Positions 1 to 54,997 of a stretch of DNA of 64,000 bases are shown here, one piece after another. The notes below the pieces were generated by a model. It ran no database searches, was not told the origin of the DNA, and saw only the letters and a list, made by a program, of their open reading frames with translations. The stretch's first letter is position 1. Each line of letters opens with the position of its first letter. A program made the translations under genes and the position numbers. Source of the stretch: Mastigias papua. Taxonomy: Eukaryota; Cnidaria; Scyphozoa; Rhizostomeae; Mastigiidae. The stretch covers positions 10,100,428-10,164,427 of the forward strand of contig OZ025280.1 in the NCBI GenBank assembly GCA_964019165.1, read 5' to 3'.

Positions 1-1273
1 ATGTATAACAGGTTATGCCTCACTAATGCACAATTTCTGAGTTTCAAATCAATTTTTACTAGCATACTTTTAGGAATTTTTTTTAGCTTTTATGAAGTTA
101 AATTATGAAGCATCTCTATACATTGTCATTCTATATTGCCTACTTGAATGCCTCAAGGTAGCTATTATAGGAGTTTGAAAGATATTACTGGGTGTGCCTA
201 GATGACAATGGTATTCATACATTTGACTTGATGTCCTTAGATGAAAAATGTACCAACATAGTACTTGATTGTCTGCCTGTAGGATTTTTGTCACTAGCCT
301 ATTTCACTTTGAGATATCAGTTGTCACAGTGACCATTAGTACTTTTGATATTTCATTCTGTTTATGATGATATGTTGTTAAAGTTTTGTATTAGTTAGAG
401 CCAGCAACCTTATTTGTATTGTACTCAATTGCCAGCTCGAGCCCCCCTCTCAAGTACAGCTATGATAGTAAATTTGTTTCTATGATGCAAGCTCTACAAT
501 ATATCATTCAATGATAGGATTTACAGCTTTATGCGGTTGACAAGAGGTTAGGACTCACATGATTTTGGTCCATAATATTGTTACTGTTGAGTTTGCTCTA
601 AGATTACAAGTCACTGTTATTTCAGTTTTGTACACTTATGGAGCAGTCATTACGTATCAGGGGGTGGGGGTTGAGGCACATGATAAAATAGATTCAACAA
701 TTTTGTACCCCAGTTGGACATGGAATAATATTCTAGAGCCCCAGATTAAATACTTTGTGGAGCCCCAACATTTAATTTTTGTTATTGATTGTAGTACATC
801 AGTCATTGTGTCCTGGATATATTAGTTGGTGGTCCTTAGCAACAGCATAGGCAATAGTATGTGACAGTGTTCCACCACAAATTGATATGCACTATTGTAG
901 GATTCCTAAGAGGTTATGAATCACTTATCTACATAAGCATAGGCATGATCTATGCACTTTATTTTGGAGTCTTCTCAGATAGTAGACGTTTTTACAGCTG
1001 AATATAATACCTCTGGATAAATTGTATGGACATTTGGATAAGGTATTTGACTACAATCATCTATATGATGCTAGGTTTAAGGTATGTTACTAAGTTGTAC
1101 ACCACCACCACCACGACCATAACTACCTTTAATGCTTGACATCTGACTTTGTTATTTCAAGCTGTATAATATATCTCATTCATTGGCTTTCCATCTTACT
1201 ATGCAGAATATTTTAAAGTGATATTGTATTACCAAGCCATATTCATTTATCATTATGAACTTGAAGTATAGTT

Positions 1274-1735
1274 CCTTTCAGGTATTGTAATTAAGTTCTG
1301 TCTAATTTATTGGGTCTTATTATATAGTAAAGCAATTGGACGTGATTAATAGCTAAAACCAGATAGAGTCTACAGTCATACCTCTCAATTGATGTGACAT
1401 ACTATATGTTCTCTAAAGTATTTACATTATACAGCAACATTGTATAAGACTCATTACATTAGGATTGAGTGATGCATGACATATTGTGTGATGTATAGGT
1501 CCTTTCAGGTAGTGTAATTAAATTCTGTCTAATTTATTGGGTCTTATTATGTAGTAAAGCAATTGGACAAGATTAATAGCTAAAACCAGATAGAGTTTAC
1601 AGTCATACCTCGCATTTGACGTGACATACTATGTGGTCTATGAAGAGTTTACATTATACAGCAACATTATTATATAAGACTCATTACATTAGGTTTGAAT
1701 CATGCAGGAGATATTGTATGATGTATTTCCATTTA
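1274..1735 (+). repeat. Two-copy tandem duplication (about 227 bp) in the U0 tail
   Basis: The block starting CCTTTCAGGT and running through a GTAAAGCAATTGG stretch to TTGTGTGATGTA occurs twice, offset 227 bp. The same duplication is present in the tails of U2 (from about 28060) and U3 (from about 36082), so it predates their separation. U6 carries essentially one copy (from about 49162) with its own smaller duplication. Confidence 0.75.
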
Positions 1736-1791
1736 TGCCTCATTGCACACACCACTTTAAAACATTATATGCTTAGTTCATGTAATAGAGA

Positions 1792-2377
1792 CTAGCTTAG
1801 TAATGATAGCCCGCTAGACGCGGGCTCCCCTACCCCAGTTCAAAAGTTGCAGATTAGCCTTGGAAAGACTAACGCAGTGCCCTCATCCAAGCTGCATGGT
1901 CCGCATTGTCGATGAGGATGGATGAAAAAGCTCGCATAGGATCATGAGAGGATGACGTCATGGGCCTCTGCAGTTGGAGCACGTGACATCCGGCTTTGCA
2001 ATGGAGAAATCAACAAAAATTTGCGAGAAAACAGTGTGCAAAAATGCTCGGATACCTGCGCTAGGCTATGGGGCTTTGGGCATTCTTCTTCATCTTCTAA
2101 AGCCCCATAGCCTAGCGCAGGTATCCGAGCATTTTTGCACAATGTTTTCTCGCAAATTTTTGTTGATTTCTCCATTGCAAAGCCGGATGTCACGTGCTCC
2201 AACTGCAGAGGCCCATGACGTCATCCTCTCATGATCCTATGCGAGCTTTTTCATCCATCCTCATGGACAATGCGTACCATGCAGCTTGGATGAGGGCACT
2301 GCCTTAGTCTTTCCAAGGCTAATCTGCAACTTTTGAACTGGGGTAGGGGAGAACGCGTCTAGCGGGCTATCAGTACT
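1792..2377. repeat. Foldback FB1: near-perfect palindrome at the U0 right end
   Basis: The left arm starts CTAGCTTAGTAATGATAGCC. The right arm ends with the inverted sequence up to CAGTACT. The arms meet around 2078-2098, a roughly 21-nt spacer between GGGGCTTT and AAAGCCCC. Each arm is about 270-285 bp with only scattered mismatches. The outer part of each arm is the Helitron terminal hairpin (AGCCCGC, 5-nt loop, GCGGGCT). The inner arm holds a palindromic CRE-like TGACGTCA and an E-box CACGTG. As RNA this would fold into a long duplex. The two opposite-strand open frames here (1942-2202 minus, 1974-2234 plus) encode the same string because of the palindrome and are not genes. Confidence 0.9.
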
Positions 2378-2430
2378 TCTCTATATACTAAAATCCCAAA
2401 ATGCAAATGAGCGTGCCCATTGTTTACATC
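2378..2430 (+). promoter_or_regulatory. U1 left end with TATA-like and octamer-like sequences
   Basis: This is the left terminal sequence of the Helitron. It contains CTATATACTA (TATA-like) and ATGCAAATGAG, which includes the octamer ATGCAAAT. The same two motifs recur at the left ends of U2, U3, U6 and U7. U4, U5, U8 and U9 have ATGCTAATTTATG or ATGATAATTTATG followed by a CCAAT sequence (lost in U9, which reads CCGATT) and CACGTGAC (CACATGAC in U5). These are shared terminus features by sequence. A promoter role is only suggested by the motifs and by the conserved splice donor about 350-620 nt downstream. Confidence 0.4.
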
Positions 2431-5280
2431 AAAGGGACCCGTTTCTCATCGGTGGAACGATCGCCTTCTAGGATTCTCTCCTGTTTCGCCTCAAAATCTG
2501 TCTCCTTCTTTACCGTTTTCAGTTGGGTGGAAATCCAAAGTCACGGAATTTTACCGTTTTTCCTTCCCGAGATATTCCACTGTGAATCTTGCGATTTTGC
2601 ATGCTTTGTGTTTCCTCCTTTGTCCTCCATTGTTGTCATCCGCATGGATGGCACTGCTCTCAGTACAAGGCGTGATCGATCGGGATTAGGTTTACTTACT
2701 TGTGAGTGGAAGTTTGTTGCATTTCTACCAGGTTAGTAGCTATTTTGTCGTCTATAGCTACTGTATTGTAGTTTGCTTATATTGTATTCCTCGATTGCGT
2801 GTGTTTTCTGGTATTTTAAGCAATGTTTTCGATGTATGGAGGTAGTTTCGTACACCCTCCCTCGCTGTTGTTATTCGCCATGACAGTTTAGCCACTAAGT
2901 CGTCGCTTGATTGCTATCTGAAGATTCGATTTATGTTATTTACCTCTGTTTTGGGCAGATTTGAAGAACTTCCCTCGGGGGCTGTCTCGCCAAGACAGTT
3001 CTTCTCCATCCGTTCGATTCTGGTCGCCAGATTTCAATGCCTTAACTGGTAAGGTGTGCTAAGAGATTTAGCTGATGTTTTATGTTGTACTCCTTTGTGT
3101 ATTAGGATGGTGTTTAGCTGTTTTATCATCCCTTTTACATAGGATAAACCGAACGTGACACTCTCAGTTCAGACATGGTTTGAATGCTACTAATTGTCCA
3201 GTTGGTAGTTCAGGAACATTTTGTGGTTCTGCTACCAGGTGAGTCATATTCTAATGCTACAACGTTTGATTTCAAATTGCCTGTCTTTCTCCTGTCCTCT
3301 GTGTGCACTTTCTATAGTATTTTCGACAGTAATGTTCAATATTGCCAGCGAGATTGCAATAGCTTCCCTCGGGGGTTTTCCGCCATGACAGTTCCTCTCC
3401 GCCACGCTGTATGTTACTCTCTCTTGGTGGGTGAATTTAATTCGTCCTTCTACTACCGGGTAAGTCGTTTTTTCATGTAATAAGGTTTGTTTTTCAGATT
3501 GCCTGTAATTTTTCTGTCTACTTTACATGTTTCATTAGATACATTATGGCAGTATTTTGAGCGAGATTCCTGTAGCTTCCCTCGGGGGTATTTCGCCATG
3601 AAACTTCCTCGCCGATCAGATTGATTTTATTGTCTAGATTGTCTTGGTTCTTTTACAATATTGGGATGAAATGTTTACTGTCGTATTCATTGCTAGATTT
3701 CTGTTTATACCTTCAAGACAATGCGTGCGTAAAGGAGATAGGAAATCTTTATGTTTGCATTTGAAGTATGCTATATGAAATGCTGAATTTGGGCATTAAT
3801 GACGTGTTTTGGGTCTAAGTTTATAGTTGTATATGTGATTTATTTTTAAGAGGTGAAGGTCTTTTGAGTAATATAACTGTAATTAGAAGGTTGGGTTCCC
3901 CCTCAGTTCAGTCCAGGAAGCCACTGCTCTGTGTTTCATTCGCATTGCCAGTAGCCACACAATATCTTAACAGGGATTTACAGAGATGTCTACAGTGTTT
4001 ATATTCTATTTGCTAACTGTCCTTCATATTATTCCTATGATGTTTTTGTGTCCCTACACTCTTTATTTTGGTGTGGGTTGTAGATAGAGATGCGAACAAT
4101 AGTGTTTACACAAGACCGCAAGTTGCAGTTGAGGGCGTGTTTACAAAGTGGATGGATGTCTTGCAGTTCTTCATGAAATTTCGTCCCTTCTCTATAAGGT
4201 AAGTGGTTTATTTCACTGATAAGGTTTCGATTTAGTTTTACCAGGATTGTTTTGTGTAGAATGGTTGCTATTTTCCCTGTTTGACGAGATTTAAGGCTGA
4301 GGGGTTTTCATCCCCGTCCTCTTCACTCAGGAGGAACCTATTGTATGTGTTTCACTGCCATTGTCTGTACCCACAAAATAACTGATAACAGTTGCTGTAA
4401 GATGGGCAAAGAGTTCTATTTTACTTGCTTATTGTCTTTCATATTATTTCTGTAGCGTTTTGGTATCCTCTGCATCTGAAGTGTGTTGTAGTTTGCCATG
4501 AGAAATGCGAGGGGATTCCCAAGTCACTCACCATCGTAAATACCTGCAATCCTTTGTTCAGGAACAATGGTCCCTTCACAAGACCGCATATGTGGTGTCG
4601 AGGGCGTGTTTGCAGAGAGTAAAGTTGTGTTGCATATTTATATGGAATTTCGTCGCTTTATTAGAAGGTAAGTGGTTTATTGTATGTAGTAGCTTTTGAT
4701 ATACGCTTACAGGTGTTTATTTCGTAGATTCCTTGCCTTTCTACCCCTCAGACAAGGTTTACTTGTGATGTTTTGTTGAAAATTCCATTACTCTCATTCC
4801 TCTTCTCTCATGGCTTCCTTACTTCCAGTGCACTGTGTATTCTAAATTCCCGCTGTAGTTTTAGCTAACATCGTCAAGTGTTATACAGAAGTTTATGTAC
4901 TAATTCATTGACATATGTGTTGTGTAGTTGTGTGCCTTTGCTGCAATTTCCTTCTTGACCTATTTACACTGATATTGTGATCTAACTTACTTTTGTATTC
5001 ATCACACTAGGTAACTTATTCACGAAATTTTACTTTAACTACAAGAGCCTCATGGTTGTAGTCACTATATATGATACTGCTATTTGTTTTTATGCTGAAT
5101 GGTCTTTTACTGCAAAACAGTTTCCCTGCTGTCTATGATCATTTGTTAAAAATACCATTAATGATTTCCACCTTCATTCTGCACATGATGATATAGTTGT
5201 ACGGGATTAATTACTACCAGATAGCCACAGTATTTGTATTGAATAGACTTCACTTATGCAAACCCCCATCCCCCAGTCCA
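2430..5280 (+). other. Conserved 5' block of U1 with exon-like segments
   Basis: No sustained open frame. The block is homologous to 23700-26730 (U2) and 44830-47850 (U6). Strong splice-donor-like sites follow short exon-like stretches: GT at 2732, 3239, 3460, 4199 and 4668. Most have counterparts in other units. A motif of the form CTTCCCTCGGGGG, then CGCCATGACAGTTC, recurs near 2970, 3362 and 3573, with a degraded copy at 2847. The 40-nt block around ATTCTGCACATGATGATATAG lies at 5155-5197. The best interpretation is a non-coding 5' leader with introns for RepHel, retained by the non-autonomous units. That is inference. Confidence 0.5.
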
Positions 5281-5319
5281 TTGGGGGGGGGTCGTACTAT
5301 AGTTTGTACTCAACTTCCT

Positions 5320-5441
5320 TTACGTTTGAACTCTATGTAAAGTCCATTTAGTCAATTCATTCACTTAGACTGGCCAATATTTACATTTGAACTCTATGTA
5401 AAGTCCATTTAGTCAATTCATTCACTTAGACTGGCCAATAT
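5320..5441 (+). repeat. 61-bp perfect-looking tandem duplication
   Basis: A 61-bp segment containing TTTGAACTCTATGTAAAGTC occurs at 5320-5380 and again at 5381-5441 with one or two differences. It lies just past the point where U1 stops resembling U2 and U6. Confidence 0.85.
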
Positions 5442-8400
5442 ACCATTACAAATACCAGCATGCAACTTTTGTACACTTTCCCGTATTCTACGCTATCTGA
5501 CGTATTTCCGTATGTTTGTATGAAGAAAGTTTTATCAGAGCATATGAGCACTTGACGCATCCATTCACTTGATTCGAGAATATTTTTAGATGCATATTAC
5601 CATCACGACATCATACCTACCCCGGAAGCCGGAACCTTGACACTAGGTGTGATGTTTACTCGCATGATGCGTCTAAATGGGTTGTTTCGCCACTGCAAAT
5701 TCTATACTTCGTAAACAACCAGGCCTATAGTGCGTAATTCACCCTATTCGCATGCGTACACAATTATCAAGCACATAGTGTTGATTGACACGACCGCTCC
5801 TATTTTCCGACTTGAGTCATAAGATTCATGCATACCCGCTACGGGTTTAGTCTTCGGCAAGCAACATTAGCAGAAGGTTAACGTGCGACAGAAGAGCTAT
5901 TTGTTTTATTGTTTCAGGTGAGTGCCCTTTTGCACTGTTATTTTCCATTTAGTCTCACAGACTGGTTAGTGACATTCCTTTATTTCGTTCCTATACCATT
6001 GTCGACATAAGTTACCGCTACCTGGACCACAGCTAGGAATTTGTGAGGGCAAGGGCCTAAACAAGAACAGGCTCACTGGCCACTTTCTAACGAGATTAGA
6101 TAAGCCTCTGTGGTTGTTGGGGTTTTTAAGGGTATTTATTTTAGGCCATCTTCTGTCTCTCCGCCTTTTGCATTAATAGCATTGTACCAAAGTGTATCAA
6201 CAGGAGATCCCTGTCTTCACATTTGTATTAGTTTCCGTTTTATGTGTATTAGTTTATATATTGTTTACGTATGGTGTTATATCTTGCCCTCACGATTGGG
6301 CTCTTTGGTGTTACATCTTGCCCTGAGGAGTACGCCAATGTCAGCACTATCGGCTGTGAGAGCATTTTACTTGAATTTCACAATGACTTTATATTCTCTC
6401 CTACATTCCATTTGCTCTCTATAGCACTCATGTCCTGCCTTGATATGTTGTGTTCTATGTTCCAATCTTCATTTGTTCATTCCTATTTATCCTAGACCTG
6501 TTCCACGCGATTCGACAGGAATCATAGACCGTCTACACTTTGGTATGTCAATTAGATCTTTCATGTCATTTTATTGTCATTCTGGTACGTACTTGTGATA
6601 TACGGATAATTCACAGGTTGCATAACATGTCTTAGGGGAGGAATGGTACCTTGATTTGTTACGTTGTTGTTTACTTACTATATAGGGCTATACCTCTCGT
6701 CGTTACGAGACGGATAGGGAGGGATGGTTTCAAAAACAGTAAATTCACCGTTGCATTACGTACCGGGTAAATGACCCCATGCAACTTGGTGCACTACACG
6801 CGTTTTTTATAGGGAGCTGCACGTACAGTGCCGAAGTATTTTAACGGACTTATACTATGACACAAACTGTCTGTAAGACACCTTCCACTGTGAATCATTT
6901 TATAGCACCAACCAATCAAGAACTAGGACTCTGGTTCCATTCCTTTGAAGCCAACATCCATATAGATTGTTTCCTATGCCTGCGTTGGATCTGCCACTTT
7001 TCATTAGTCTTGCGTTAGTAAATTTAGGGCAGAAGTAAGGATTTCAATGGTGTACGTGTCTCTACCATTTTTATGGCATGAATTGTTCACTGACCATTAA
7101 GACACTGTTAAGTAACTTTTAGTGCTACACTTTGATAATTGGAGATCTAACAATAAGGAGCTGTTGCAGCTAAGCCTTCAGCTAGCTTCCTTAGACAAAA
7201 CGCGTGTTTACCTTCAGGCCTTGAATTAGTCTCCTGGGGGCGTATTCATTTCTGATACTTTTTGGGCAACGGTATATTCCAGGAGAAGACTTTTTGGAGG
7301 CGACTTATACAATTATTTGACATATGATGGATACAAAGCTACTTTTCAACGCTGCCATTCTCCATGATAGTAGAAGAACAGTCTACATTTAATCATTAAC
7401 CTTTATCAAACGGCTTATTAACAATTTGGGTACCACCACGGGGGCTTATTCTAGGAGGGTTTTTTCGAGGGAGAGCCACTTCGAAGGTATAAAGTACATA
7501 TATATAGACCAGGACATATTACGTGATTCATTCTCCACGCATGGGCGCTAGGTGTTGCTTACGTATATTTTTCCTGGAAATACACATATTTTATATAAGA
7601 ACGTGTTTTATAAGAAAGTAGCACTTGATTCGTCAAAAGTTAAGGAACCTAAGTAGTGGATTTTGCACACCTAAAGTTTAACATCCTCTTACCCAGTGGA
7701 GATAAGCAAGCAAAACTATGAATAAATAACATCATGTGACCAAGTAGAGTTATTAAGAGATCCAATAGTCTGTATATACGGAGGACACATGATTTCATCC
7801 AAAATTTTCAGATTAGAAACACGTGTTATGTACTGTGTTGAGGTCTATTAACTAAGAAATGCACATTTTACTTAAGATAGTCTTAAGACAGTTTGAGTAC
7901 CGTAATTGCCAGATTATTAAGACAGTTTGAGTACTGGGGTCAGTTTAAACTTTCTTATAAAAAAAATACATGTAGCCTCAGTTTTGCCATTTTTTCCTTT
8001 TATAATCATTACTCATATTGGAGTGGTAGATTACAATGGTAGAAAGTAATGCCAGCATGTTTAACTTCTTCATTGGGCAACTGCGCAACAGTACCGTATT
8101 CCCTATTACTTTTTTGAAGCTGTTTGTTTGTATGATCTTGTAAAAGACTACCTACATTCTTCCACTTTTCCTCCCTCTTTGAGCCTGCTATTACCTCTGT
8201 AAATTTTACTTCTTATTTATTCCTGGCAATGTTGTTTTCTCATGCCATACTTTTTTATGTCATTGGTATGTAGTTCAAAGATTGCACTTTTCTCAGAAAC
8301 CCCCTGCCACCCACTACAGATTGGCCTTTGAATATACCTATTTGCCATATCATTATCTGGGAATTGTTTAGCAGTGAAGTACTTATTTATTAGTGGAAAG

Positions 8401-10216
8401 TTCTACATATTTCTAGCATGGAGTAAGCTCCCTTTTGTCGTTACCGCTTTCATAGTACTAACTTACTACTATTTTGGTCATGTACTGCACCCATTAGACT
8501 TATTTCCATTATCTCTCAACCGTTCTGTATTTTATTATACGTTGTTTATAACACTGAGTTCTATAACATAGTAGTACTCGGGACCATATTACATCTAGAG
8601 CCCTCAGATCTACCAAATACAGTATATTATGCAACGTGTCAGTGCAAAATACTTTCATTAAATGTAAATCAAGGTGGGTTCAAGGAAGAGAAAGTTGGTA
8701 CCACAGTTCTTCGCGTCAAATATTAACACACATAAAGAGATCAATAGCTTAATTTTTTTATTTCTCTTGCATTTAAACTGTATTACAGTGAACCAAGATA
8801 GTGCCATGGAAGCTTATTTGAGGGTGAGGGCTTATGTCTTAGAAATAATCTTGAGGTTGGGGACTGATACCATAGGGCTTAATCGAAAGAGGAGGCTTAT
8901 TCCAGCCATTATGGTATGTTCATTTTCTCTTCAGAAATCACTTTTATTGTCTCTCTTCCTCTGTGTTCTACATGCGATTAAAAGATACTGGAATGGATGA
9001 ATAGATCCCTTCCTTAAGTTTTTCTTTGTGTTATACGTGAGTCATTATTTACAATGGTATCTTTGCCATGCGGAATACTAGGTTATTTTGCTGCTCTTTA
9101 TTGTATTCAGATATTTTCCAATTGTCACTAGGACCACACCCTGGTCCCTATCCACCACAGATTGCTTGGGGGGGGAGTTGTTGAAATCAGTGTACCAAGC
9201 ATTCACCTACCACATGGCCTCCTAGCCCCCAGTACTATTCAAACTCCTTTTAATAATACTTTCCATTAGTTTCTATAAAATAATTTAAAAGGACACAAAG
9301 GAACTTCCAGTGCTCTGTTGTAAACAAAACATTACCCCATTACCCTCTTTGTTACAACTTTACAGGGGCCGTACCTCTTAACCACCACCTGGCTACACAT
9401 ATAATGACATCCATCAAAGCCATAGACTTGTGTACACTGCCTGCATACATTTTTAACACTATTGTCTATAAAAATACAATGTTATAGCTTCATCACGAGC
9501 TACATATGTTGTGTATTTCAGGTTTACTTAGGGACCAACGTTTCACTTATCAACTTTGGTAAGGAATATCCTATCATGGAACTCTTCTGGGGTGTTGCCT
9601 ACACACTTTTCAGAATACATTAAAACCACTCTTCACCTGAACATAGGAATATTGTGCCTCACTAGAACATCACATATTTTTACACTAACATAAGTCTGTA
9701 TAATTTACTTTCTGTATTCTAGATTTTATGCAGTGAAAGTTTATTGCCTTTAACTACTATATGGTAGATTTCAACAGTTTTGTCCTAGAATTTTGATGTA
9801 CCATAACTTACTTAGTATTAATAAGTTGTTAGCATTATCCTCATTTATGTTTTACTCTATCCAATTGACAGCTCATACTAAGTACCAAATTGTTTGTATA
9901 CATGTGCAACGCTTATCAGTTTGCCCCCGTGCAGGTACCTCTAAGTCTACAATAGATATTTCCAGTCTTTTGTGATTTATTCACCCTGACTTAACACTTC
10001 TGTCTTTCTTCCCCAAATTTCATACCATCATTCACAATTTACTTTGAGATGTCATCTGTTTTATATTATTAACAGTTTGCTTATTCTCATTTCTTTACCC
10101 TTGTGGGCTAATTACCACATTTTCTAAGTATTGCACATCTTTCATCTGAGCCATATTCTAGGTAGCATTTTACTTCCTATACTCCCATCGACCCAACATT
10201 TTATTTCACTTCATAG
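5442..10216 (+). other. U1-specific non-coding region upstream of RepHel
   Basis: No gene recognised. Open frames are short (74-108 aa at most) with no familiar motif. A possible short MITE lies at 7601-7968. The stretch just before RepHel ends in a pyrimidine-rich run and AG at 10215-10216 (TTATTTCACTTCATAG), 11 nt before the RepHel ATG. It could be the 3' splice site of a leader intron. Confidence 0.5.
7601..7968. mobile_element. Possible MITE with TATAAGAAAG-type inverted ends
   Basis: The left end reads GTTTTATAAGAAAGT and the right end reads ACTTTCTTATAAAAA, giving inverted termini of roughly 15-18 bp about 370 bp apart. A related pair (TATAAGAAAC) brackets about 58251-58768. The interior shows a 34-bp-spaced direct repeat of TTAAGACAGTTTGAGTAC (7883 and 7917). 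No target duplication is clear. The superfamily is not recognised. Confidence 0.3.
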
Positions 10217-10227
10217 TTATTTGAACT

Positions 10228-12933: not shown

Positions 12934-12945
12934 TTATTTGCCACA

Positions 12946-13788
12946 TTGATGGTGTTTCAAACTCCATCTGACATCAGAGCCCTCTTTGATGAATTCAAGG
13001 AAGCCATGTGTGAAGATTACATCAGACATGATCAACTCCATGACCCAGAAGTGACAATGCAAGATAGACACATTCATCTCTGTCTATGGGATATTGACAC
13101 ATGCCTCAGGGTTCATGGTAAGTCAATGTCAAATGTTGAATTTTTTGATCTTCCACAGCTTCCACACAATTTCATACATCCACAGAATCAGAATGAACAC
13201 ATTGACATTGTTCGTGAAAGACAGCTGGGTGAGCAAATGCTCCAACAACTCAACATTGATCAGCACCATATTCACGACACCATTGTCGATGCCATAACAA
13301 CAAATTCTGATCAGAATTGCTACTTTGTGGATGGACCAGCAGGCACAGGTAAGACCTTTCTTTATAATACTATAGTTCACAACCTTCATGCTTTGGGACT
13401 AAAGGTGAAATGTATGGCATATTCAGGAATTGCCAGCACATTGCTCATCAATGGAGCAACAGCACACTCGACATTTCAAATACCTATTCCTTTATTGCCT
13501 GATTCTACATGTAACATAAAGAGGCAAAGTGCTAGAGCTGAAATTCTCAGAGAAACAACAATATTTATCTGGGATGAAGCATCAATGATCCCAGCAGATG
13601 CACTAAAATCTGTAGATGTCCTTCTCAGAGACATAACACAGGTTAACAGGCCATTTGGGGGTAAATTCATGTTTCTTGGAGGTGATTTTCGACAGGTTCT
13701 CCCAGTTGTTCCTAGAGCAGGTAGAGAACAGACTGTTCGCCAATGCATCATCAATTCACACTTGTGGCATCACTTCCACCAGTTTTGA
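12946..13788 (+). CDS. PIF1-like helicase, first part of the RepHel C-terminal half
   Basis: This is the same reading frame as the Rep segment, resuming after its stop. The listed start is simply the first ATG; homology begins at 12934. Motifs in order are Walker A GPAGTGKT (13333-13356), motif Ia ATAHSTF, Walker B IWDEASM (D at 13573) and motif III GGDFRQVLPVV. It ends at TGA 13786 in the middle of the HxFxx(R/Q)LxxNMR region, so the remaining helicase motifs lie in the next segments. PIF1-family SF1 helicase, expected to unwind the displaced Helitron strand 5' to 3'. Confidence 0.92.
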   Translation: MMVFQTPSDIRALFDEFKEAMCEDYIRHDQLHDPEVTMQDRHIHLCLWDIDTCLRVHGKSMSNVEFFDLPQLPHNFIHPQNQNEHIDIVRERQLGEQMLQQLNIDQHHIHDTIVDAITTNSDQNCYFVDGPAGTGKTFLYNTIVHNLHALGLKVKCMAYSGIASTLLINGATAHSTFQIPIPLLPDSTCNIKRQSARAEILRETTIFIWDEASMIPADALKSVDVLLRDITQVNRPFGGKFMFLGGDFRQVLPVVPRAGREQTVRQCIINSHLWHHFHQF

Positions 13789-14209: not shown

Positions 14210-14335
14210 GTATGAACACCTCTCATCTACTTCATGTGTATCATATACGCCATCACTTTTCCATGATTATTCCTTTTACTGACATATCTTCATATTTACT
14301 CCTTTTCCCTCTCATCTCCATTATGATGTCACTTA

Positions 14336-14400
14336 GGCTACCTTCACATGAAAAAGTTCGAAGCGCTTTGAAACTCGCGGCGCTGTGAGTTCAGTTCGGT
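14336..14400 (+). repeat. Harbinger left terminal inverted repeat (65 bp)
   Basis: Pairs with 18412-18476 in inverted orientation. It includes the AAGCGCTTTGAAACTCGCGG core and ends TTCAGTTCGGT. The pairing stops at position 65. Confidence 0.9.
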
Positions 14401-39999: not shown

Positions 40000-40000
40000 T

Positions 40001-40032
<32 letters not shown>

Positions 40033-41230: not shown

Positions 41231-41295
41231 TGTTATATGTTATGCACGTCTATGGGATTTTAGACACCATGTATTCCCTATTGATATGATGAAGA

Positions 41296-41803
41296 CTAGC
41301 AGTTGTTTGATAGCCCGCTAGACCCGGGCTCCCCTACCCCCAACCAAAGCTGGAGATTAGCCTTGGAAAGACTAACGCAGTCGCCCATTGAAGCAGCATG
41401 GTCCGCATTTTCGATGAGGATCACGGGAAGGTGACGTCATGGGCCTCTGTGGTGGAGCACATGACCATCAGCATTGCATTGGTCAACTCGAAAAATTGCG
41501 AGAAAAAATTGTGCAAAAAATGCTCGGATACCTGCGCTAGGCTACGGGGCTTTCCGCCTTCTCTTATACAGCCCCGTAGCCTAGCGCAGGTATCCGAGCA
41601 TTTTTTGCACAATTTTTTCTCGCAATTTTTCGAGTTGACCAATGCAATGCTGATGGTCATGTGCTCCACCGCAGAGGTCCATGACGTCACCTTCCAGTGA
41701 TCCTCATCGAAAATGCGGACCATGCTGCTTCAATGGGCGACTGCGTTAGTCTTTCCAAGGCTAATCTCCAGCTGTGGTTGGGGGTAGGGGAGCCCGCGTC
41801 TAG
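41296..41803. repeat. Foldback FB4: palindrome at the U4 right end
   Basis: Arms of about 230-250 bp meet at 41551-41570 (between GGGGC and GCCCC). The left arm starts CTAGCAGTTGTTTGATAGCC. The right arm ends GGGGAGCCCGCGTCTAG and joins the U5 left end directly. CACATGACC and TGACGTCA lie in both arms. The two 100-aa frames on opposite strands (41398-41700 and 41421-41723) are mirror translations. Confidence 0.9.
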
Positions 41804-44783: not shown

Positions 44784-47700
44784 TCTCTATATACTAAGAT
44801 CCCTAAATGCAAATGAGCTCGCCAATTGTTTACATCAAATAGACCGGCCCCTGATGCTGTACAGGATACTACTCCTTGGATAGTTGGGGATCGGTCTCAG
44901 AGTCTCTACGTAAGTCTAGATTGCAGCGACGGTCTGATCGTGTTTTTATCGTTTTTTGTTGCCGAGATAGTCCACCTTCTCTGAGCTTCTTCGCGGACCT
45001 TTGTCTGTCCTCTATTGTGCTCCATTGTTATCGTCCACAGGGATGGCACTGCTCTCAGTACAAGGCGTGTGGGATCGGGATCAGGTTTACGGATTTTTGA
45101 GGAGAAGTTTGGTGGATTTTTACCAGGTTAGTAGCTATGTGTCCTCTCTAAATTCTGTATTGTGGTTCGCTTATATTCTATTCCTTGATTCAGTGCGTTT
45201 TCTGGTGTTCTAAGCAATCTTTTTCGATGTATGGAGGCGGTTCCGTACACCCTACCCTCGCGATTGGTATTCGCCATAACAGTCGAGCAAGTAAATCGTC
45301 GCTTCAATGGTATCTGAAGATTCGATTTATCATTGCCAGCTTTTATTCAGTGAAATTATAGCACTGCTGCTCTTTAGATGCGATTTACGGGTGATGTGAG
45401 CCCTGTATATGCCTCTTGTTTTAGGCCAAATTGGAAGAGCTTCCCTTGGGGGTATTCTCGTCGCCATGACAGTCCTTCTCCATCCGTTCGATTCTGTTCG
45501 CCAGATGTCAATGCTTTAACTTATAAGTTGTGCTAACACATTTAACTGATGTGTCATGCTGTAATCTTTGGTGTATTAGGATAGTGTGTAGCTGGTTTTT
45601 CCTCCGTTGTAAATAGGATAAACCGATCGTGAAACTCTCAGTTCGGACATGGGTTGAATGCGACTGATGTTCCAGTTGGAAGTTGAATAACATTTTGTGG
45701 TTCTGTTACCAGGTGAGTCGTTTTCTAATGCTATAACGTTTGATGTCAAATTGCCTGTGTTTCCCCTGTCCTCTGTGGGCACTTTCTATAGTAGTTTCTA
45801 CACTGATGTTCAATGTTGCGAGCGAGATTGCAATAGCTTCCCTCGGGCGTGTTCCGCCATGAGAGTTCCTCTCCACCATGCTTGATGTTATTCTCTGTTG
45901 CAGTGTCAATTCAAGCGACCTTTCTTCCCTCTACTACCAGGTAAGTCGTTTGTTCATGTAGTAAGGTTTGTTTTCAGATTGCCTGTAATTTTTCTGTCTA
46001 CTATACATGTTTCATATTACACACCTTATCTCAGTATTTCGAGCGAGCTGCCTTGAGGGGTATGTCGCCATGACACTTCCTCTCTGATCAGATTCATTTT
46101 ATTCTCTAAATTGTCTTGGTTCTGTTACAATATTTGGGATAAAATGTTTACTGTCCTATTCCTTGCTGGATTGCTGTTTATACCTTGAAGTTAATGCGAG
46201 CCTAAAGGAGACAGGGAATCGTTATCTTTCCTCATTAATTGACCTACATGAAATGCCGAATTTGGGCATTGATGAAGTGTTTTCAGTCTAAGTTTGTAGC
46301 TGTATATGTGGCTTAGTGTGTGATTTATAGTTAAGAGTTTAAGTTATTGTCCGTAATATAACTGTAACAAGAAGGTTGCACTCCCCCTCAGTCCAGTCCA
46401 GGAGGCCACTGCTCTATGTTTCATTCTAATTGCCACTAGCCACAAAATATCTTAACACGGTTGTACAGAGAGGTTTTACAGTGTTTATATTTTATTTGCT
46501 AACTGTCCTTGATATTTTTCCAATCATGTTTTGGTGTCCTTACACTCCTTAGTGTATTGTTGGTTGTAGATAGAGATGCGAGGGGATTCCCAACTCAAGA
46601 TCATGATCGCAGAAACCTCTCATCCTTTGTGTCCGAACAATAGTGTTTACACAAAGCCACAAGTCTGCAGTTGAAGGCGTGTTTACATATCGGATGGATA
46701 TCGTTCAAGTCATCCTGGAATATCGTCCGTTCTCTATAAGGTAAGTGGTGTATTTCATTGACAAGCTTTCAGTTTAGTTTTTCCAGGATTGTTTTGTGTA
46801 GAATGGTCACTACTTTCCCAGTTGGACGATATTTAATGCCGTGGTTTGATCGAGATTCCATACCATTCCCTCGGGGGCCAAATGATCATACCACTTCCTT
46901 TCATGTTCCCTTGATTTCCGCCTGTAAATTACCGCTTAGTTACTTCAGAAGTTTCAGTATACTATTCAGGGGATATTCACTGTATTATTTACTGATATAC
47001 TAGGATATTTTAGCGTGCTGATAATACTTTGCATTTGCGTGATTTTGAGGGAATTATGTATGAACAGTTAGGCCGCTTTCTTTATGTTTGATATGTTGGT
47101 CCTCACGTCTGGTTAGCTCTTGGTTTTTCCCATACACTTATTGTAGGCTGGAGATAAGATGTTGTTCAAATTATTCCTTGGGTTATTGGAGTGTAATAGC
47201 TCTCTTTTCCGTTCGGGTTTTCTACAGTATTTTGAGGAAAGTACTATGTGTATTCTCTCTGAAACCTTGAGGGGCGTTTCATATTACTCTCAGTCACTAA
47301 AGCTGATTCCTTCCGTATTCTCAGTAGAACACTTACAACTCTGAATCAGTGGTATATTTATAGTGAAAGGGACAAAGTCTTATGCAGATATGTTATGTAC
47401 TAATTCGTTGATACTTTGGTGTATAGTACCGTGCGTTGTCAGGTTCTTCCTTCTTGATTTATTTATGGTAATATTGTGTTCTAAATTAGCTTTGTAGTCA
47501 TCACACTTAAGTAACTTATTCACAAAGCTTTATTGAGTATAGTGCTCTACTGATTGCCTTTGTACTTACAACAAGCTAACAATCTTTATTTACAAGATTC
47601 TAATCATTGTATTCACTATAGATTTTAGTGTTATTTTGGAGGACTCAGTGTATTCGTGCTTTAGTCGTAACTCTCCCTGTCCTGGCAAACCAGCCCATCC

Positions 47701-49843
47701 TAAGAATATCTGTTATAAAGACCATTCATGATTTCTATCCATCATTCTGCACATGATAATATGGTTTTACTGGATCAAGTAGTATTAGATAACAAGTATT
47801 TGTATTGTTTAAACTTAATTCCCAGAGCCCCGTCTTCCAGCCCACACCCCTGTTAACAGTATTGTTTGTAATCAAATGTTATCAGGGACTTACTGTAAAA
47901 GAGTATTATGTATACAAAGTTATGCCACATTCATGCACAATGTCTGAGTTTCAAATCATGTTTGACTAGGACAGTTAGAGGAATATACTTTAGCTTTTCT
48001 GAACTTAAATTATCAACCATCTCTATACATTGTGGTTGTATATTGCCTACTTGAATGCCTTAAGGTAGCTGTTATAGGAGTTTGGACAATATTACTGCAT
48101 GTGCCTAGATGACAATCGTATTCATACATTTGAATTGATGTCCTTAGATGAAACATGTACCAATATAGTACTTGATTGTCTGACTGTAGGGTTTTTATCA
48201 CTAGCCTATTTCACTTTGAGATATCAGTTGTCACCACTACCATTACTCCGTTTGATATTTCATTCTGTTTATGATGATATGTTGTTAAAGTTTTGTATTA
48301 CGTAGAGCCAGCAACCTTAGTTGTATTCTACTCAATTGCCACATCAAGCCCCCCTCTCAAGTGCAGATTTGATAATAACTTTGTGTGTGTGATGCAAGCT
48401 CTACATTATATCATTCATTGATAGGATTTACAGCTTTATGTGGTTGACAAGAGGTTAGGACTCGCGTGATTTTGGTCCATAATGTTGTTACTGTTGAGTT
48501 TACTCTAGGATTACAAGGCAATATTATTTCAGTTTTGTACATTTATGGAGCAGTCATTAAGTATTAGGGGGATGGGTGTTGAGGTACATGAGAAAATAGA
48601 TTCAACAATTTTGTACCTCCGTTGGGCATCCAAATATATTCTAGAGCCCCAGATTAAGTACTTTGTGGAGCCCAACACTTAATTTTTGTTATTGATTTTA
48701 TTACATCAGTCATTTATGTCCTGGATATATTAGTTGGTGATCCTTAGCAACAGCATAGGTAATAGTATATGAGACTTGGTTCCACCACAAGTTCATATGC
48801 AGTATTGTAGGGTTACTAAGAGGTTATTAGTCACTTATCTACACACACATAGGAATGATTTATGCACTTTGTTCTGGAGTCGTCTCAGATAGTAGAAGTC
48901 TTTAGACCTGAATATGATAGGGTATTTGACTACAACCATCTATATAATGCTAGGTTTAAGGTATGTTATTAAGTTGTACACCCCCCCCCCCTACCAACAC
49001 CACCACCATAAGTACATTTAATACTTGGAATCTGACTTTGTGAATTCAGGCTGTATAATATATCTTAGTCATTAGCTTTCCATCTTACTATGCAGACTAT
49101 TATAAAGTGATGTTGTATTACCAAGCAATATTCTTTTATTTGTATGACCTTACAGTATAGGTCCTTTGAGATATTATAATTGCATTACATCTAATTTATT
49201 GGATCTTATTATGTAGTAAAGCACTAATTTATTGGGTCTTATTATGTAGTAAAGCAATTGGCCAAGATTAATAGCTAAAACCAGATAGAGGTTGCAGTCA
49301 TACCTCTCATTTGATATGACATACTATATCGTCTATGACATGTTTACATTATGCAGCACCATTATTGTATAAGACTCATTACATTAGGATTGAATCATGG
49401 AGGAGATATTGTATGATGTATGTCCATTTATGCCTCATTGCACACACCACTTTAAAACATTATATGCTTAGTTCATGTAATAGAGACTAGCTTAGTACTG
49501 ATAGCCTGCTAGACGCGGGCTCCCCTACCCCAGTTCAAAAGTTGCAGATTAGCCTTGGAAAGACTAACGCAGTGCCCCCATGAAAGCTGCATGGTCCGCA
49601 TTGTCGATGAGCATGGATGAAAAAGCTTGCATAGGATCATGAGAGGATGACGTCATAGGCCTCTGCATTGAAGCACGTGACATCTGGCTTTGCAATGGAG
49701 AAATCAACAAAAATTTGCGAGAAAAAATTGTGCAAAAATGCTCGGATACCTGCGCTAGGCTATGGGGCTCTTGAGGATGAAACAGAAAGAGAAAAAAGCC
49801 CCGGGGTAGGGGAGCCCGCGTCTAGCGGGCTATCATTACCAAG
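44784..49843 (+). mobile_element. Helitron unit U6 (class-A left end, about 5.1 kb)
   Basis: Class-A left end with ATGCAAATGAG. Donor-like GTs at 45127, 45713, 45941 and 46741 match U2 positions by offset. The U2 site at 24394 is degraded here (CTTATAAGT). A GCGAGGGGATTCCC block lies at 46577, TTCCCTCGGGGG/ATCATACCAC at 46862, and the 40-nt block at 47721-47762. The tail 47905-49485 is diverged from those of U0, U2 and U3. The right end is truncated palindrome FB6. No gene. Confidence 0.78.
49487..49843. repeat. Foldback FB6: left arm only, right arm mostly deleted
   Basis: The full left arm (to about 49768, GGGGCTC) and loop are present, then AGCCCC jumps straight to GGGGTAGGGGAGCCCGCG, so about 250 bp of the right arm is gone. 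The hairpin end reads GCGGGCTATCATTACCAAG and then the U7 left end. A deletion through the palindrome stem is the simplest explanation. Confidence 0.85.
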
Positions 49844-51183
49844 TCTCTATATACTAAGATGCCTAATATGCAAATGAGTCGCCGGCCAATCGGTTCCCTC
49901 CATTTTGTACCACGTGACCCGTTTTTTGCCCCTATCTAAATGACAATTCTCCTCCCAGGCCAGTTGGGGGATCGCCACCAAATTGCTCTTGGGGGTTCTC
50001 CTAGGTGTCTACGTACTCACAAAGGAGGGGTTTTTCGATATCTCTCTTCTTTCCTGAGATATTCACAAGTTAAACTTACGGTCATTTCTCTCATCTACAA
50101 TCCACCATCGACATTTTGTACCTCTGCGCAGGAGTCGCTCTTTCAGTTTGGCCAGTAGACATGGAGGACAATGGCGGTGCTTTGCTGTTGCGAGGAGAAT
50201 TGGTCGCTTTTCTAGCAGGTAGGCCCGTCGTGTTCTTCCTAGATGGGTGATCTAACAGTGTGTGTATTTAATTTGTCATATTTATCAGTTGTCTGCCGTT
50301 GTGAGCCCTGTATTTGCCCTCTTGTAGGCCTGAGTGAAACAGCTTCCCTCGGGGGCATTATCGCCATGACAGTTCTTCTCGAGCAGCTCGATTCTTGTTA
50401 CCAAATTACACTCCTTTGACTGGTAAGTTGCAATGAGAGATTTGACTCGTGTGTCATGTTGTATTCCTTGGTAGGTTAAGGTAATGTGTATTTGTTTTTC
50501 ACCCCTGTTATATAGCATATAGCATGCGTGTAACTCTCAAATCGGGAATGGATTGAATGGGACTAATGTTGCAGTGAGAAGTGAAAGAACATGTCGTCGG
50601 TCTCCTACCAGGTGATTGGTTTCCTTATTCTATAAAAATTGATTTCAAATCGCCTGTCTTTCCTCTGTCCATGCGGTGCATTTTCTACAATCGTTTCGAC
50701 ACTTAATTTCAGTACTGCTAGCGAGATTCAGACACTTTCCCTCAGTGATTTTCCGCCATGACAGTTCTTCTCCAACACGTTTGATGTTATTCGCTGTTGT
50801 TTGGTGAAGCCGAGCACACTTTAGTCCGTCTGCTACGAGGTGAGTCTTTTTATTTCAAATTGCCTATCCTTTTGGACATTCTTTTTCATCTTCTAAAGCC
50901 CCATAGCCTAGCGCAGGTATCCGAGCATTTTTGCACAACTTTTTCTCTCAAATTTTAATCGATTTGTCCATTGCAAAGGCCGGATGTCACACGCTCCAAT
51001 GACGTCACCTTCTCTTGATCCTATGCGAGCTTTTTCATCCATGCTCATCGACAATGCGGACCATGCAACCTGGATGGGGCACTGCGTTAGTCTTTCCAAG
51101 GCTAATTTGCAAATTGATTTTGACAGGGCCAGCAGGTAACTGGGGTAGGGGAGCCCGCGTCTAGCGGGCTATAAAAAAAAACC
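49844..51183 (+). mobile_element. Helitron unit U7 (short, about 1.3 kb, recombinant)
   Basis: The left end mixes classes: ATGCAAATGAGTCGCC (class A), then CCAATCGG and GTACCACGTGACC (class B). Donor-like GTs at 50219, 50423, 50612 and 50840 match the U2/U6 layout. The motif CTTCCCTCGGGGGCATTATC occurs near 50345. At about 50875 the body switches abruptly to the loop and right arm of an FB1-type palindrome. The right end is damaged: GCGGGCTAT is followed by an A run and CC instead of the usual spacer and CTAG. Confidence 0.72.
50875..51183. repeat. Foldback FB7: right arm only
   Basis: Begins in the palindrome loop (CATTCTTTTTCATCTTCTAA, close to the FB1 loop) and continues as the right arm to GGGGAGCCCGCGTCTAGCGG. 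No left arm is present, so this is the complement of FB6. A short private insertion (ATTTTGACAGGGCCAGCAGG) interrupts it near 51115. Confidence 0.85.
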
Positions 51184-54100
51184 TCTCTATATACTAAAAT
51201 CCCTATATGATAATTTATGCCAAACCAATCATATTGCTCCAAATTGTACCACGTGACCTGATTACGCGCACACGATCTCCTCCCAGGGCATTCATCCCAT
51301 GGCCCCCATATTTCTGTCAAGGGTGGCCATTTGGGTCTACTACTTACATAAGAAGAGATCTGATTTTTATCATTGTTTTTTGCCGATTTATTCCACTTTC
51401 CTCTTATCGCCATTACCAGCAATTCTGTTGCTCCTCCTGCTGGACCGCGTGTTGTCAGTTTTGCGAGCGGTCCTGTAGGACTAAGTAACTGTGTATGTTA
51501 TCGCGAGGAGACTTTGGTTGCAGTTCTTCTAGGTAAGCCTGCTCTAGTTTCCTGAAATGGTTTGATTTATGAATTCCTGTATTTCCTTTGTCCATTTCAT
51601 CCGTATTCTACAGTTGTGAGCCATTTATTCCCATATCTCTCTACGAGATTCAGCCACCTTCCTTTGGGGTATTACCGCAGCGACAATTCTTCTCCAAGTT
51701 GTTCGATTCTATGTACTAAATCACAGTGCTTTTACTGCTAACTTGTGAAAAGATATTCAACATATCTATGACTTTGTATTTGATGCTAGATTATGGCAGG
51801 GTTGTTTGCTTTTCATGCCTATTTAGATGACATGGAATGGCTTGCTTGCTGCTTTCAGTTGGGAATGCTTTGATTAGGACTACCGTATAGTTGGCGTGTG
51901 ACTTTGAGGATAATTTCGTCGTTCTGCTTCCAGTTTAGTGCTGTTGTCGCCTGATTTCATTTGCCAAGGAATCCTACTTTTCGAGGGTGATATCATCATG
52001 ACAAATCTTCCCGAGCCATTCGATTCTCTCTGCTAAATCATAGTGCTTTTGCCGGTATGTTGTGATAAACCATATAGAGGGTATTTCATGTTGTATTTTG
52101 TGGTATATCATGGTGTATTTTGCTAACTTTTTACGCTTTGTTGCCTGATGGGATAACATTCGGGAAGCTTTCAGTTTGGGTTGCTTTTGCATGATGTGAA
52201 GTTCCAGTTTTACTTTGAGGAAAATAAATTAAGGCATGATAACATATTGACCAGTAGCGTACTGAAATTGTTTTTTCTAACTTCTAAAGTTTCCCGTGTT
52301 TTTTCTGTATGTGGTTGTTCATTGTGTTATCTACTATAACTCTGACAGGTTTGTAGCCCTCCCCCTTATAGTTTAAGCTATGAAGAGGCTGCTGTTCGTC
52401 TTTCATGTCAGGTATGAATACAAGCAAACTACGTGACTTGCTAAGTTTCTTGAGTGTTAGCCATAAAACGTAATGGTATCCTTCAATCCTCATTCTGGTG
52501 TAGTTTCTCTAGAGACATGCGAGGGGATTCCCAAGTTCACCTCACGATCGCAGATACATTTGATCCTTTGTTTTTCGAACATCTACATTATAGAATTGTG
52601 ACTGCAAAGGGTTCTGGAAGTTGTTTGGCAGATTCCTACTGGACTATTTAATAATTGCTGGAATTTTTAGCGTGCTGTTCACTTTCAGTTATGCTAGGCC
52701 ACTCTGACATTGTTTACAGTTGAGACCGGTCTGGGTTGAGATGTTGTTTGTAGCTTCTACATAGCTCTTTATGTTTGCAACACAGTTATTTTAGGCTAGA
52801 GCTGGATGTTATCCAATTTAGTCTGTGGATTATTGCAGTTTGATACCCTGTCTCTGTTTCTTTTTCTTGCATTAGTTGAGGAAACAGTCGTGTGCATTCT
52901 CTCCATATTCTTGAGGGGCGTTTCATATTACTCTCAGTCCCTGTAGATGATGCCTTACTTACTTCCAGTACAGTTTGTAGCTGAATCCCAGTACTCTTTA
53001 TTTACAACACTTTTATATTTCTTTTCACTATGGATCGTAGTGTAACTTTTGAGGAGTCAAATTAGGGGTTCCTGTATCCTGAATGTTTCTTTGCTGTAAA
53101 ACAGTTGCTATAAATTCCATTAATGATTTCCATAGATCATTCTGTACATGATGATTCAGTTTAAAGCGATTACTTACTATTAGATAGCACGATCATTGCT
53201 ATTGTGTGGACTTGATTTTTCCGAGTCCCTACCATCAACTCCCCCCATCCCAAATATGTAATTGAGAATACTGTAATTACTCGAAACCTGATTTGAAGAT
53301 TAATATTCTATAGGATGTTACTTGTACATAGCAGTATTCTTTTATTTTTATGAAGTAACACTATGGAGTCCTCTGAGCTATTATAATTCGATACAAGCTA
53401 ATTTAATTGCTAAGTAAAGCTAATATACCAGATAACAAAGGACTACTGGATGCAACCATATTACAGGTTTATGGATCAGATTTAAGTGTGTACCTGTATG
53501 GAGAAGATTTGTGATCACCCACTAGGTCATAGCCCTAGTCATTCCTGTCAGTTGATAGGCTATTTTTCTATATGTTATACACTGTTACAATTATACTACT
53601 AGATTTTCCAACACTCTCTATATTAGAAGTGAAGTATGCAGGAGACAATACTTGATGTAGCTCTTTAATGTCTCACTGTAAAGACCATTTTGAAGAATTA
53701 TGTGCTTATTTCATATACAGGAGACTAGCTTAATACTGAAAGCCCGCTAAACGCATGCTCCCCTATCCCCAGGTCAAAAGGTTACAGATTAGCCTTGGAA
53801 AGACTAACACTGTGCCGCCATCAAAGCTGTATGGTCTGCATTTGTGAGGAGGAAGAATCCACAAAGCTCGCATAGGATCAAGAGAAGGTGACATCATGGG
53901 CCTCTGTCATGGAGCACGTGATCTTCGGCCTTGCATTGTGTAAATCGAGAAAAATTATGAGAAAAAATTATGCAAACAATGCTCGGATACCTGCGCTAGG
54001 CTACGGGGCTACTTGACTTTCATCCTTTTTCTGTACAGCCCCGTAGCCTAGCGCAGGTATCCGAGCATTGTTTGCATAATTTTTTCTCATAAGTTTTCTC

Positions 54101-54322
54101 CATTTACACAATGCAAGGCCAAAGATCACGTGCTCCATGACAGAGGCCCATGATGTCACCTTCTCTTGATCCTATGCGAGCTTTGTGGATTCTTCCTCCT
54201 CACAAATGCAGACCATACAGCTTTGATGGCGGCACAGCGTTAGTCTTTCCAAGGCTAATCTGTAACCTTTTGAACTGGGGATAGGGGAGCACGCGTTTAG
54301 CGGGCTGTCAGTATTAAGCTAG
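51184..54322 (+). mobile_element. Helitron unit U8 (class-B left end, about 3.1 kb)
   Basis: Class-B left end (ATGATAATTTATGCC, CCAATC, GTACCACGTGACC). GCGAGGAGACTTTGG precedes the donor-like GT at 51533. A degraded CCTTTGGGGTATTACCG motif lies near 51660. A GCGAGGGGATTCCC block is at 52519 and the 40-nt conserved block at 53117-53158. It ends in complete palindrome FB8. No gene. Confidence 0.75.
53725..54322. repeat. Foldback FB8: palindrome at the U8 right end
   Basis: Left arm from CTAGCTTAATACTGAAAGCC; right arm to TATTAAGCTAG. The arms of about 280 bp meet near 54010-54037 (GGGGCT ... AGCCCC). The right end is canonical (hairpin, spacer, CTAG), followed by the U9 left end at 54323. CGTGATC and CACGTG lie in both arms. 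Confidence 0.9.
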
Positions 54323-54997
54323 TCTCTACATAACTAAGATCCCTATATGCTAATTTATGCCAGACCGATTACAGGGCTCGGATTGTACCACGTGACGGGG
54401 ATTCACGTACAACACTTCTCCTTCCAGACGGGCCGGGGGCTATCGCTAAAACTTCCACTGGGGGTTCTACTTTGGATTTCGCACCCCCCTTTCAAGAAAT
54501 GGTTTCCATAGCTTCTGTGGTTCTCGAGATATTGCACTTTTCGTCTTCCCTCCATACTGTAGGCGATATTTTGTATTGGGCGATTGGGGATCAAGCTCTA
54601 AGCAATGTTGCTCACTGTATGTGGTGTCTGTCACGTGCTCTTCTCCCTATTGTCTTCTCCATATGTCCCTTTGTTTTCTAGCTGCACTCTGCCACCACAG
54701 GCGCTCCTTCCTGTAGTTACTTGAGAGCTTCATTCTTTCGATCGGGGGGTCTCCTATTCCTTTGTGACTGCAATGATACCATATGTATTTTAATGAATGA
54801 TTGAGTCTGCTTATGGCACAAAGTCCCCCGTTTCCAATTTGATGCATCCTTGTGCTCAACTTCGTGGTGCAGTTTTGGGAGTGTTTACAGACAGTAGATT
54901 TGTCTTGGAGATTCGAGGAGAAGTTCGTTTTCATGCGGCAGGTGAGTCCTTTTCGTGCTCTTACATGAATTGATTAATGTTAGGTAGTCCCTCTATG

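Follow-up and report, generated by a model that had tools for sequence, protein, structure and literature searches.

Fifteen head-to-tail Helitrons in Mastigias papua: a row probably grown by serial insertion at a target resembling the elements' own left end

The stretch analyzed here, referred to as the window, comprises 64,000 nucleotides of the jellyfish Mastigias papua (C18:10100428-10164427 of a 346.8-Mb genome in 172 contigs) and lies within a head-to-tail row of Helitron transposons. The row was traced into 60 kb upstream and 40 kb downstream of the window, with no N in the stretches examined. It consists of 15 units (U1-U15) without intervening DNA and spans 103,014 bp, from -31929 to 71084 in window coordinates. 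A preliminary description of the window had named nine left ends (2378, 23644, 28623, 36629, 41804, 44784, 49844, 51184 and 54323); all were located, in one orientation, and its identification of head-to-tail Helitrons was borne out. Its array size of 54 kb fell short, as the row passes both window edges: upstream there are six further left ends, oriented alike, and U15 terminates 7,084 bp beyond the window. We assign a probability of roughly 0.75 to the reading that these are 15 Helitron1-type elements at one A/T site (a slash marks a cut or a join throughout), in a row grown by serial insertion into a target chosen by sequence shared with the elements' own left end. The features of the window are as follows.

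1..2377, + strand: 3' part of U6, a non-autonomous Helitron without a RepHel match (whole unit -3141 to 2377, 5519 bp).
1799..2377, unstranded: right-terminal palindrome of U6, 579 bp, ending in AGTACT/TC (self-identity 94.6%, arms 97.5%).
2378..23643, + strand: U7, 21,266 bp, RepHel-bearing but broken, containing a Harbinger.
10225..14212, + strand: RepHel gene of U7, Helitron_like_N (HUH) followed by PIF1 helicase.
14341..18471, + strand: Harbinger-like element nested in the U7 RepHel region, with 60-bp inverted ends (14341-14400 and 18412-18471, 91.7%); its open reading frames (ORFs) are DDE_Tnp_4 at 14471-15808 and a second, on the - strand at 16849-17739, without a Pfam match.
18572..19078, + strand: C-terminal helicase part (Pif1_2B, UvrD_C_2) past the Harbinger, probably belonging to the U7 RepHel.
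23600..23643, + strand: right end of U7, a collapsed palindrome of which the tip hairpin alone remains, ending in AGTACT.
23644..28622, + strand: U8, 4979 bp.
28623..36628, + strand: U9, 8006 bp, with left end TCACTATATACTA, ending at the hairpin-loop CTAG.
28715..34606, + strand: three tandem copies of a 1964-bp segment within U9 (99.6-99.8% identical).
36629..41803, + strand: U10, 5175 bp, ending at the hairpin-loop CTAG, sister of U2 (95.3% over 5250 bp).
41318..41803, unstranded: right-terminal palindrome of U10, 486 bp.
41804..44783, + strand: U11, 2980 bp, with a full AAGCTAG end, sister of U4 (94.8% over 2984 bp).
44242..44783, unstranded: right-terminal palindrome of U11, 542 bp.
44784..49843, + strand: U12, 5060 bp, ending in ACCAAG.
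49844..51183, + strand: U13, 1340 bp, a short relative of U5 (97.3% over 1028 bp).
51184..54322, + strand: U14, 3139 bp, also present alone elsewhere from end to end (L012 97.6%, L013 98.25%).
53725..54322, unstranded: right-terminal palindrome of U14, 598 bp.
54323..64000 in the window, + strand: U15, 16,762 bp, running on to 71084.
59842..62262, + strand: endonuclease/reverse-transcriptase ORF of a long interspersed nuclear element (LINE), nested in U15.

The array elements are Helitron1-type. The 5' TC is present in all 15 units, and the 3' hairpin tip, GCCCGC-GTCTA-GCGGGC, is enclosed in a much longer palindrome in 14 of the 20 elements compared (U1-U15 and five solo copies). The preliminary description counted a single RepHel-bearing member; two were found. 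In U7 the Pfam profiles Helitron_like_N (1.3e-59) and PIF1 (5.9e-55) are matched, and the gene is broken by an in-frame TAA at 12931-12933, a frame change near 13.8 kb and an N replacing the second Y2 tyrosine, with the Harbinger separating it from its last helicase part. U15 carries an uninterrupted 1390-codon frame (measured stop to stop) just outside the window, at window coordinates 64038-68210, with the HUH motif (PHAH) and both tyrosines (KYIFKYIHKG); it is 80.7% identical to a relative, P0002, over 1296 amino acids (residues 34-1329). The naming of the HUH and Y2 motifs follows common usage and PMC13286980. Because RepHel, TC and CTAG ends, a 3' hairpin and A/T insertion without duplication are all present, the elements are assigned to Helitron1 wherever its features could be tested. 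No terminal inverted repeats were found between the ends of the 20 elements: exact inverted matches of the first 80 bases to the last 80 reach at most 5-7 nt, against a shuffled mean of 6. The Pfam annotations of the 120 relatives listed include no endonuclease domain; the elements are thus not Helitron2/Helentron. A hagfish (Myxine glutinosa) protein, P0008, is 75% identical to the RepHel encoded at window 10225-12930 over 98% of the Rep-bearing frame, a possible case of horizontal transfer.

The joins between units are nearly uniform on the left-end side and ragged on the right-end side. Seven of the nine window left ends have the exact sequence TCTCTATATACTA, the one at 28623 has TCACTATATACTA and the one at 54323 reads TCTCTACATAACTA; across the whole array, TCTCTATATACTA is exact at 12 of 14 internal joins, U9 starting with TCAC and U15 being changed. 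At all 14, a right-end tip or half-tip abuts a left end starting with TC. The preliminary description had each left end directly following a right-end hairpin and CTAG, which holds for the tip or half-tip at nine of nine window joins and for the CTAG at only four. Those four have the terminal CTAG (before 44784 and 54323) or the hairpin-loop CTAG (before 36629 and 41804), and the remainder end in AGTACT (before 2378 and 23644), AAG (before 28623 and 49844) or A9CC (before 51184). Counted over the 14 internal joins, there are four full terminal CTAGs (U1/U2, U4/U5, U11/U12 and U14/U15), two hairpin-loop CTAGs and eight other tails.

The four full joins have the CTAG/TC form that would be predicted if one element had read past its right end repeatedly and been inserted as a multimer, and the Helraiser transposon does make precise head-to-tail circles (PMC5876387). 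However, the units differ in length (1.3-21 kb) and in family, their tails vary from join to join, and the closest relatives are not adjacent. The best-scoring partner is a neighbor for none of the 15 units; the second-best partner of U8, U9, is its neighbor. In addition to the sister pairs listed above (U2 and U10, U4 and U11, U5 and U13), U6 and U8 are 98.4% identical over 4969 bp. On contig C6, the unit at 2674067 is closest to those at 2702004 (95.9%) and 2683151 (95.8%), and that at 2678605 to that at 2687695 (98.3%), none of these being neighbors. The units at 2683151 and 2702004, again non-adjacent, are 99.96% identical over 4542 bp, yet their tails differ (A8CC and A8, respectively). 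Near-identical neighbors with identical joins, as expected of a concatemer, were not found among the C18 or C6 units compared. A rolling-circle concatemer is largely refuted for the C18 array, and we consider it a very improbable origin. The non-neighboring partners, the join-to-join tail differences and the occurrence of U14 alone at L012 and L013 instead argue mainly for serial insertion. The preliminary description had left open whether the array arose by rolling-circle replication or serial insertion; the data favor the latter over a single concatemer, and block duplication may have added units.

Genome-wide, the exact left-end 13-mer occurs 635 times compared to 27 for a reversed control, and an exact left end preceded by GCGGGCTAT at a distance of up to 28 bp gives 292 matches compared to 0 for the control, which excludes chance as the source of the left ends reported in the preliminary description. 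The exact full right tip occurs 465 times. These genome counts are of exact matches, the places listed are the first 100 only, and some counts are multiplied by mirrored blocks on C6. In these blocks (C6:2.42-3.04 Mb) the spacings of the left ends recur in reverse order on the complementary strand, as might result from inverted duplication of a large block. Upstream of the array, L001 7573 and L002 4788 (minus strand) are two left ends of opposite orientation, the one in L001 also following a right-end tip.

Ragged right ends are not confined to arrays. Among 100 right tips listed of 349, 22 run into a left end, 48 into other DNA and 30 into a recurring sequence read as the inner side of the palindrome; the search pattern excludes tips with T at its last place, so that full-CTAG tandem joins are removed from these figures. 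The 48 non-tandem ends include 22 with full AAGCTAG, one with a substitution and 25 that are shorter by 1-7 nt. Erosion of right ends at nicked joints after insertion was considered and dropped, as non-tandem ends are also ragged (25/48).

Ten loci with a left-end match were chosen away from dense arrays. A complete solo element is present at five; at the remaining loci neither family sequence nor a right end follows the 13-mer, and the match appears to be fortuitous. The solo copy L017 sits in a 371-bp satellite, and its joined flanks align to 36 satellite copies, of which 35 are ungapped near the join (19/19 from L017 and 16/17 from L020). L017 is inserted between A and T, with no target duplication and no loss. 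The preliminary description had named beforehand, as an observation that would count against it, a failure of the ends ever to flank an insertion with an empty A/T target site; at L017 that site is empty in 35 of the 36 aligned copies, and the objection therefore fails. Tandem arrays of the satellite, possibly a centromeric repeat, adjoin the solo copies at L017 2935-10000 (C5) and L020 about 4285-10000 (C4). At the edges of the C18 array, host A stands on the left and host T on the right (CATATA/ and /TATATATA); the longer flanks, GTATATACATATA/ and /TATATATATA, are both within simple repeats, which hide the site of the whole array, and the empty site is demonstrated for L017. Upstream of 42 solo-like left ends (among 100 listed of 273), base -1 is A in 29, T in 9, G in 4 and C in none, as sorted by a text filter that misassigned at least one true solo, L012, to the other group.

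The DNA 3' of solo right ends reveals what the elements insert into. It mostly reads T-N5-8-CTA, usually CTAA and often with A before the C. The left end, TCTCTATATACTAA, has the T and the TACTAA found in these targets, with the CTA two to three bases farther from the cut. A first target set comprised all full right ends in the genome whose second flank base is not C (60 rows), from which seven were dropped (four resembling internal palindrome-arm flanks, one left-end fragment and two duplicates) to leave 53. CTA lies at offset 6-9 after the first T in 36 of the 53, compared to an expectation of 3.0 derived from R/T sites at nine other loci (p about 2e-32 if the rows are taken to be independent). 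A CTAA anywhere in the flank is seen in 26/53 compared to 2.6 expected, and the most enriched 4-mers are CTAA, ACTA and TACT. In a second set, of ends shorter than CTAG among the matches listed and omitting the mutated-tip row, CTA is at offset 6-9 in 20/25 compared to 1.4 expected; three of these 25, including one of the 20, resemble left ends. On these counts, chance or composition is rejected as the origin of the motif. None of the 32 CTAA flanks with four further bases continues as GATC, as the left end does, and decayed older left ends were rejected as a source for this reason. One of the dropped right ends abuts the inside of a left end (TATATACTAAGATCCC), as if the motif had been used from another T.

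A preference for AT-rich, open or heterochromatic DNA, with adjacency as a by-product of crowding, would be consistent with the concentration of joins, among the matches listed, in parts of a few contigs, and with Helraiser's preference for AT-rich DNA, which is strongest on the 3' side (PMC4778049). However, crowding would scatter copies nearby rather than place them exactly at TC, and the motif is specific rather than generally AT-rich. Helraiser retransposition also displayed no local hopping in 701 events (PMC4778049), so clustering by nearness to the donor is not a default for Helitrons; local hopping was rejected as the cause of the clustering on the same ground. We regard crowding as having very little chance of being the explanation. 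The 3'-sided polarity of the Helraiser preference is the same as that of the target rule described here.

Several observations weigh against serial insertion at a left-end-like target. Extrapolation from 80 kb predicts about 1.5 million A/T-N5-8-CTAR sites in the genome, so that a left end, of which 292 of 635 have been hit, must offer more than the motif. The CTA is at offset 10 in the left end and mostly at 7-8 in host targets; it is at offset 8 in the right tip TATCAGTACTAAG, which the target could equally mimic. There is no CTA in 14 of the 53 flanks, and L017's own target has ATTAA, not CTAA. Targets of Helraiser are AT plus AT-rich DNA, and the available text of PMC4778049 names no such motif. 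The 22 left-end-start joins among the matches listed are accompanied by up to four flanks that we read as left-end-like with changed starts, one of which was counted as a hit in the second target set, and the mirrored C6 blocks multiply the junction counts. Lastly, collinearity at about 95-97% is found in the sister pairs U2 and U10, U4 and U11, and U5 and U13, and an A-B-A-B alternation among C6 units. Block duplication or composite moves may account for part of the growth of the rows.

These last features would also be produced if unequal exchange or segmental duplication had been the main builder, starting from a few founding tandem insertions: U2, U4 and U5 have their collinear sisters in U10, U11 and U13, and C6 presents both the mirrored spacings and A-B-A-B runs of 4.54-kb units. 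Duplication leaves unexplained, however, the target motif of solo copies and the different tails of near-identical units, and U13 and a C6 unit are no less alike (97.8%) than U13 and U5 (97.3%). We consider it unlikely to be the main builder, although less so than concatemer formation or crowding, and retain serial insertion as the preferred reading.

HUH enzymes cut single strands at short motifs. The simplest reading of the shared sequence is that RepHel would nick the target through contacts that it uses at its own left end. Under serial insertion, the HUH nuclease that nicks N/TC at the donor left end may use the same contacts to nick the target, and a resident left end would, given these shared contacts, be a very good target. 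The incoming copy would be joined in front of the resident TC, leaving the old left end intact, with the newcomer's often ragged right end lying against it. The newcomer would bring a new left end that is again a target, and the row could keep growing. During transposition, the right-terminal palindrome (400-608 bp) may fold, with one arm copied or repaired from the other.

This palindrome is the second distinctive feature of the elements. The preliminary description gave the right end as a short hairpin only; at four of the nine joins in the window there is instead a palindrome of 486-598 bp, which at the others is collapsed, partial or missing. In the 14 of 20 elements that have it, it measures 398-600 bp, and the 25 palindromes with self-identity above 85% in the DNA examined measure 398-608 bp. 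Twenty of these were aligned by arm, five without a loop-bounding motif being skipped. The U14 palindrome with three flanking bases folds into one hairpin at -361.5 kcal/mol, compared to a mean of -73.3 for 20 shuffles. Arm identity is 97.5-100% within an element and about 74-89% between less related elements. Most of the differences that separate elements are present in both arms. Between C6_1465 and C6_5999 there are eight left-arm and nine right-arm differences, eight of them concerted compared to 0.08 expected; the arms of L030 and L037, which belong to a third subfamily, show 8 and 11 differences, eight being concerted. L012 and L013 have four and three arm differences, none concerted, and U2 and U10 have seven and nine, three concerted. 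Few concerted sites would be expected in these two pairs if changes acquired since the last move remain confined to one arm.

The central loop is found in both orientations in two subfamilies: the L012 loop is the exact reverse complement of those of L013 and U14, and the U5 loop is the reverse complement of those of C6_5999 and C6_38799. A single orientation was seen in three others, namely the group with inner flank TCTCTATTATAC (10/10 scored, from 20 loci fetched of which four were ambiguous and six lacked a scored loop) and the pairs U2 and U10, and L017 and L019. A flip of the whole palindrome was rejected, as inversion affects the central loop alone and the two arms hardly differ in any case; nor do these five subfamilies support loop inversion as a general rule. 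We lean modestly toward a process in which each arm of the folded palindrome serves to copy or repair the other, likely as part of the transposition cycle, over ordinary chromosomal inverted-repeat recombination. At the inner base of the palindrome, the opposite strand reads CTAG/TCT in several subfamilies (L013 near 2742, C6:2718391), like a joint of right end and left end; this place could be a second nicking site.

Joining the two features gives a broader and more tentative proposal, of a Helitron that would aim at itself. Its RepHel would recognize one and the same sequence in the target and at the left end, each insertion would create a new preferred target and arrays would have no stop signal, while the 600-nt right end would be re-copied in each round, one arm from the other, in a parvovirus-like manner, flipping the loop and keeping the arms alike, so that arm divergence could serve as an insertion clock like that of long terminal repeats. 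We consider this combination possible but rather less likely than not to hold as a whole, its odds being lowered by the finding of loop flip in only two of the five subfamilies looked at.

Two further repeats lie inside units of the row. U10 includes an (ATG)43 microsatellite at window 39904-40032. The LINE ORF in U15 is open, and its ten best database relatives besides itself are 50-59% identical.

Earlier explanations of tandem Helitrons in bats and plants were rolling-circle concatemers or insertion beside an old copy. Taken together, the solo sites, the array and the left end provide a reason in the sequence for the latter route. They also suggest a possible rule for known active systems, that a Helitron's target would resemble the element's own left end; the AT-rich, 3'-sided preference of Helraiser has the polarity required by such a rule. 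Were this true, arrays of Helitrons would seed themselves, and it would be easier to understand how satellite-like DNA extending over hundreds of kilobases develops from a transposon. Concerted palindrome arms would also supply a means of dating and a hint about the copying of the right end. Among titles and abstract openings, a coverage that leaves key subscription papers outside, we found neither a published Helitron target motif resembling the element's own left end nor a published long right palindrome with an invertible loop. Both the left-end-like target motif and the long palindromic right end with concerted arms look new.

Tandem arrays of Helitrons reportedly also occur at plant centromeres, in work attributed to Xiong et al. 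2016. The array described here is alike in being tandem; its units span left end to right end and are mutually unlike. The terminal hairpins of parvoviruses flip-flop between orientations. Here too a terminal palindrome accompanies an HUH Rep, and the loop is present in both orientations in two subfamilies; in contrast to parvoviruses, the palindrome is at the right end only and there are no virus genes, and a nick-and-copy cycle would be conjectural here. Rolling-hairpin termini of parvoviruses are reviewed in PMC5714925. Tandem or adjacent Helitrons as such are already known (PMC2267711, PMC5876387, PMC5148889). In maize, two dissimilar Helitrons meet at the same CTAG/TC join, which was explained by consecutive insertion (PMC2267711). 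That case is one pair, whereas here there are 15 in a row, 292 tip-to-left-end joins genome-wide and a target rule that would explain them. A further likeness is to Helraiser and Helibat of bats, also Helitron1, which share the 5' TC, the 3' hairpin and CTAG, a RepHel with HUH and two tyrosines, and A/T insertion without duplication, as well as head-to-tail joins in circles and a 3'-side bias of target preference (PMC4778049, PMC5876387). Helraiser differs in having a short hairpin, formed by a 19-bp palindrome located 11 nt from its end, compared to about 400-600 bp here, and in that its targets, as far as described in the available text, are AT plus AT-rich DNA, whereas those of the array family carry a defined motif shared with the left end.

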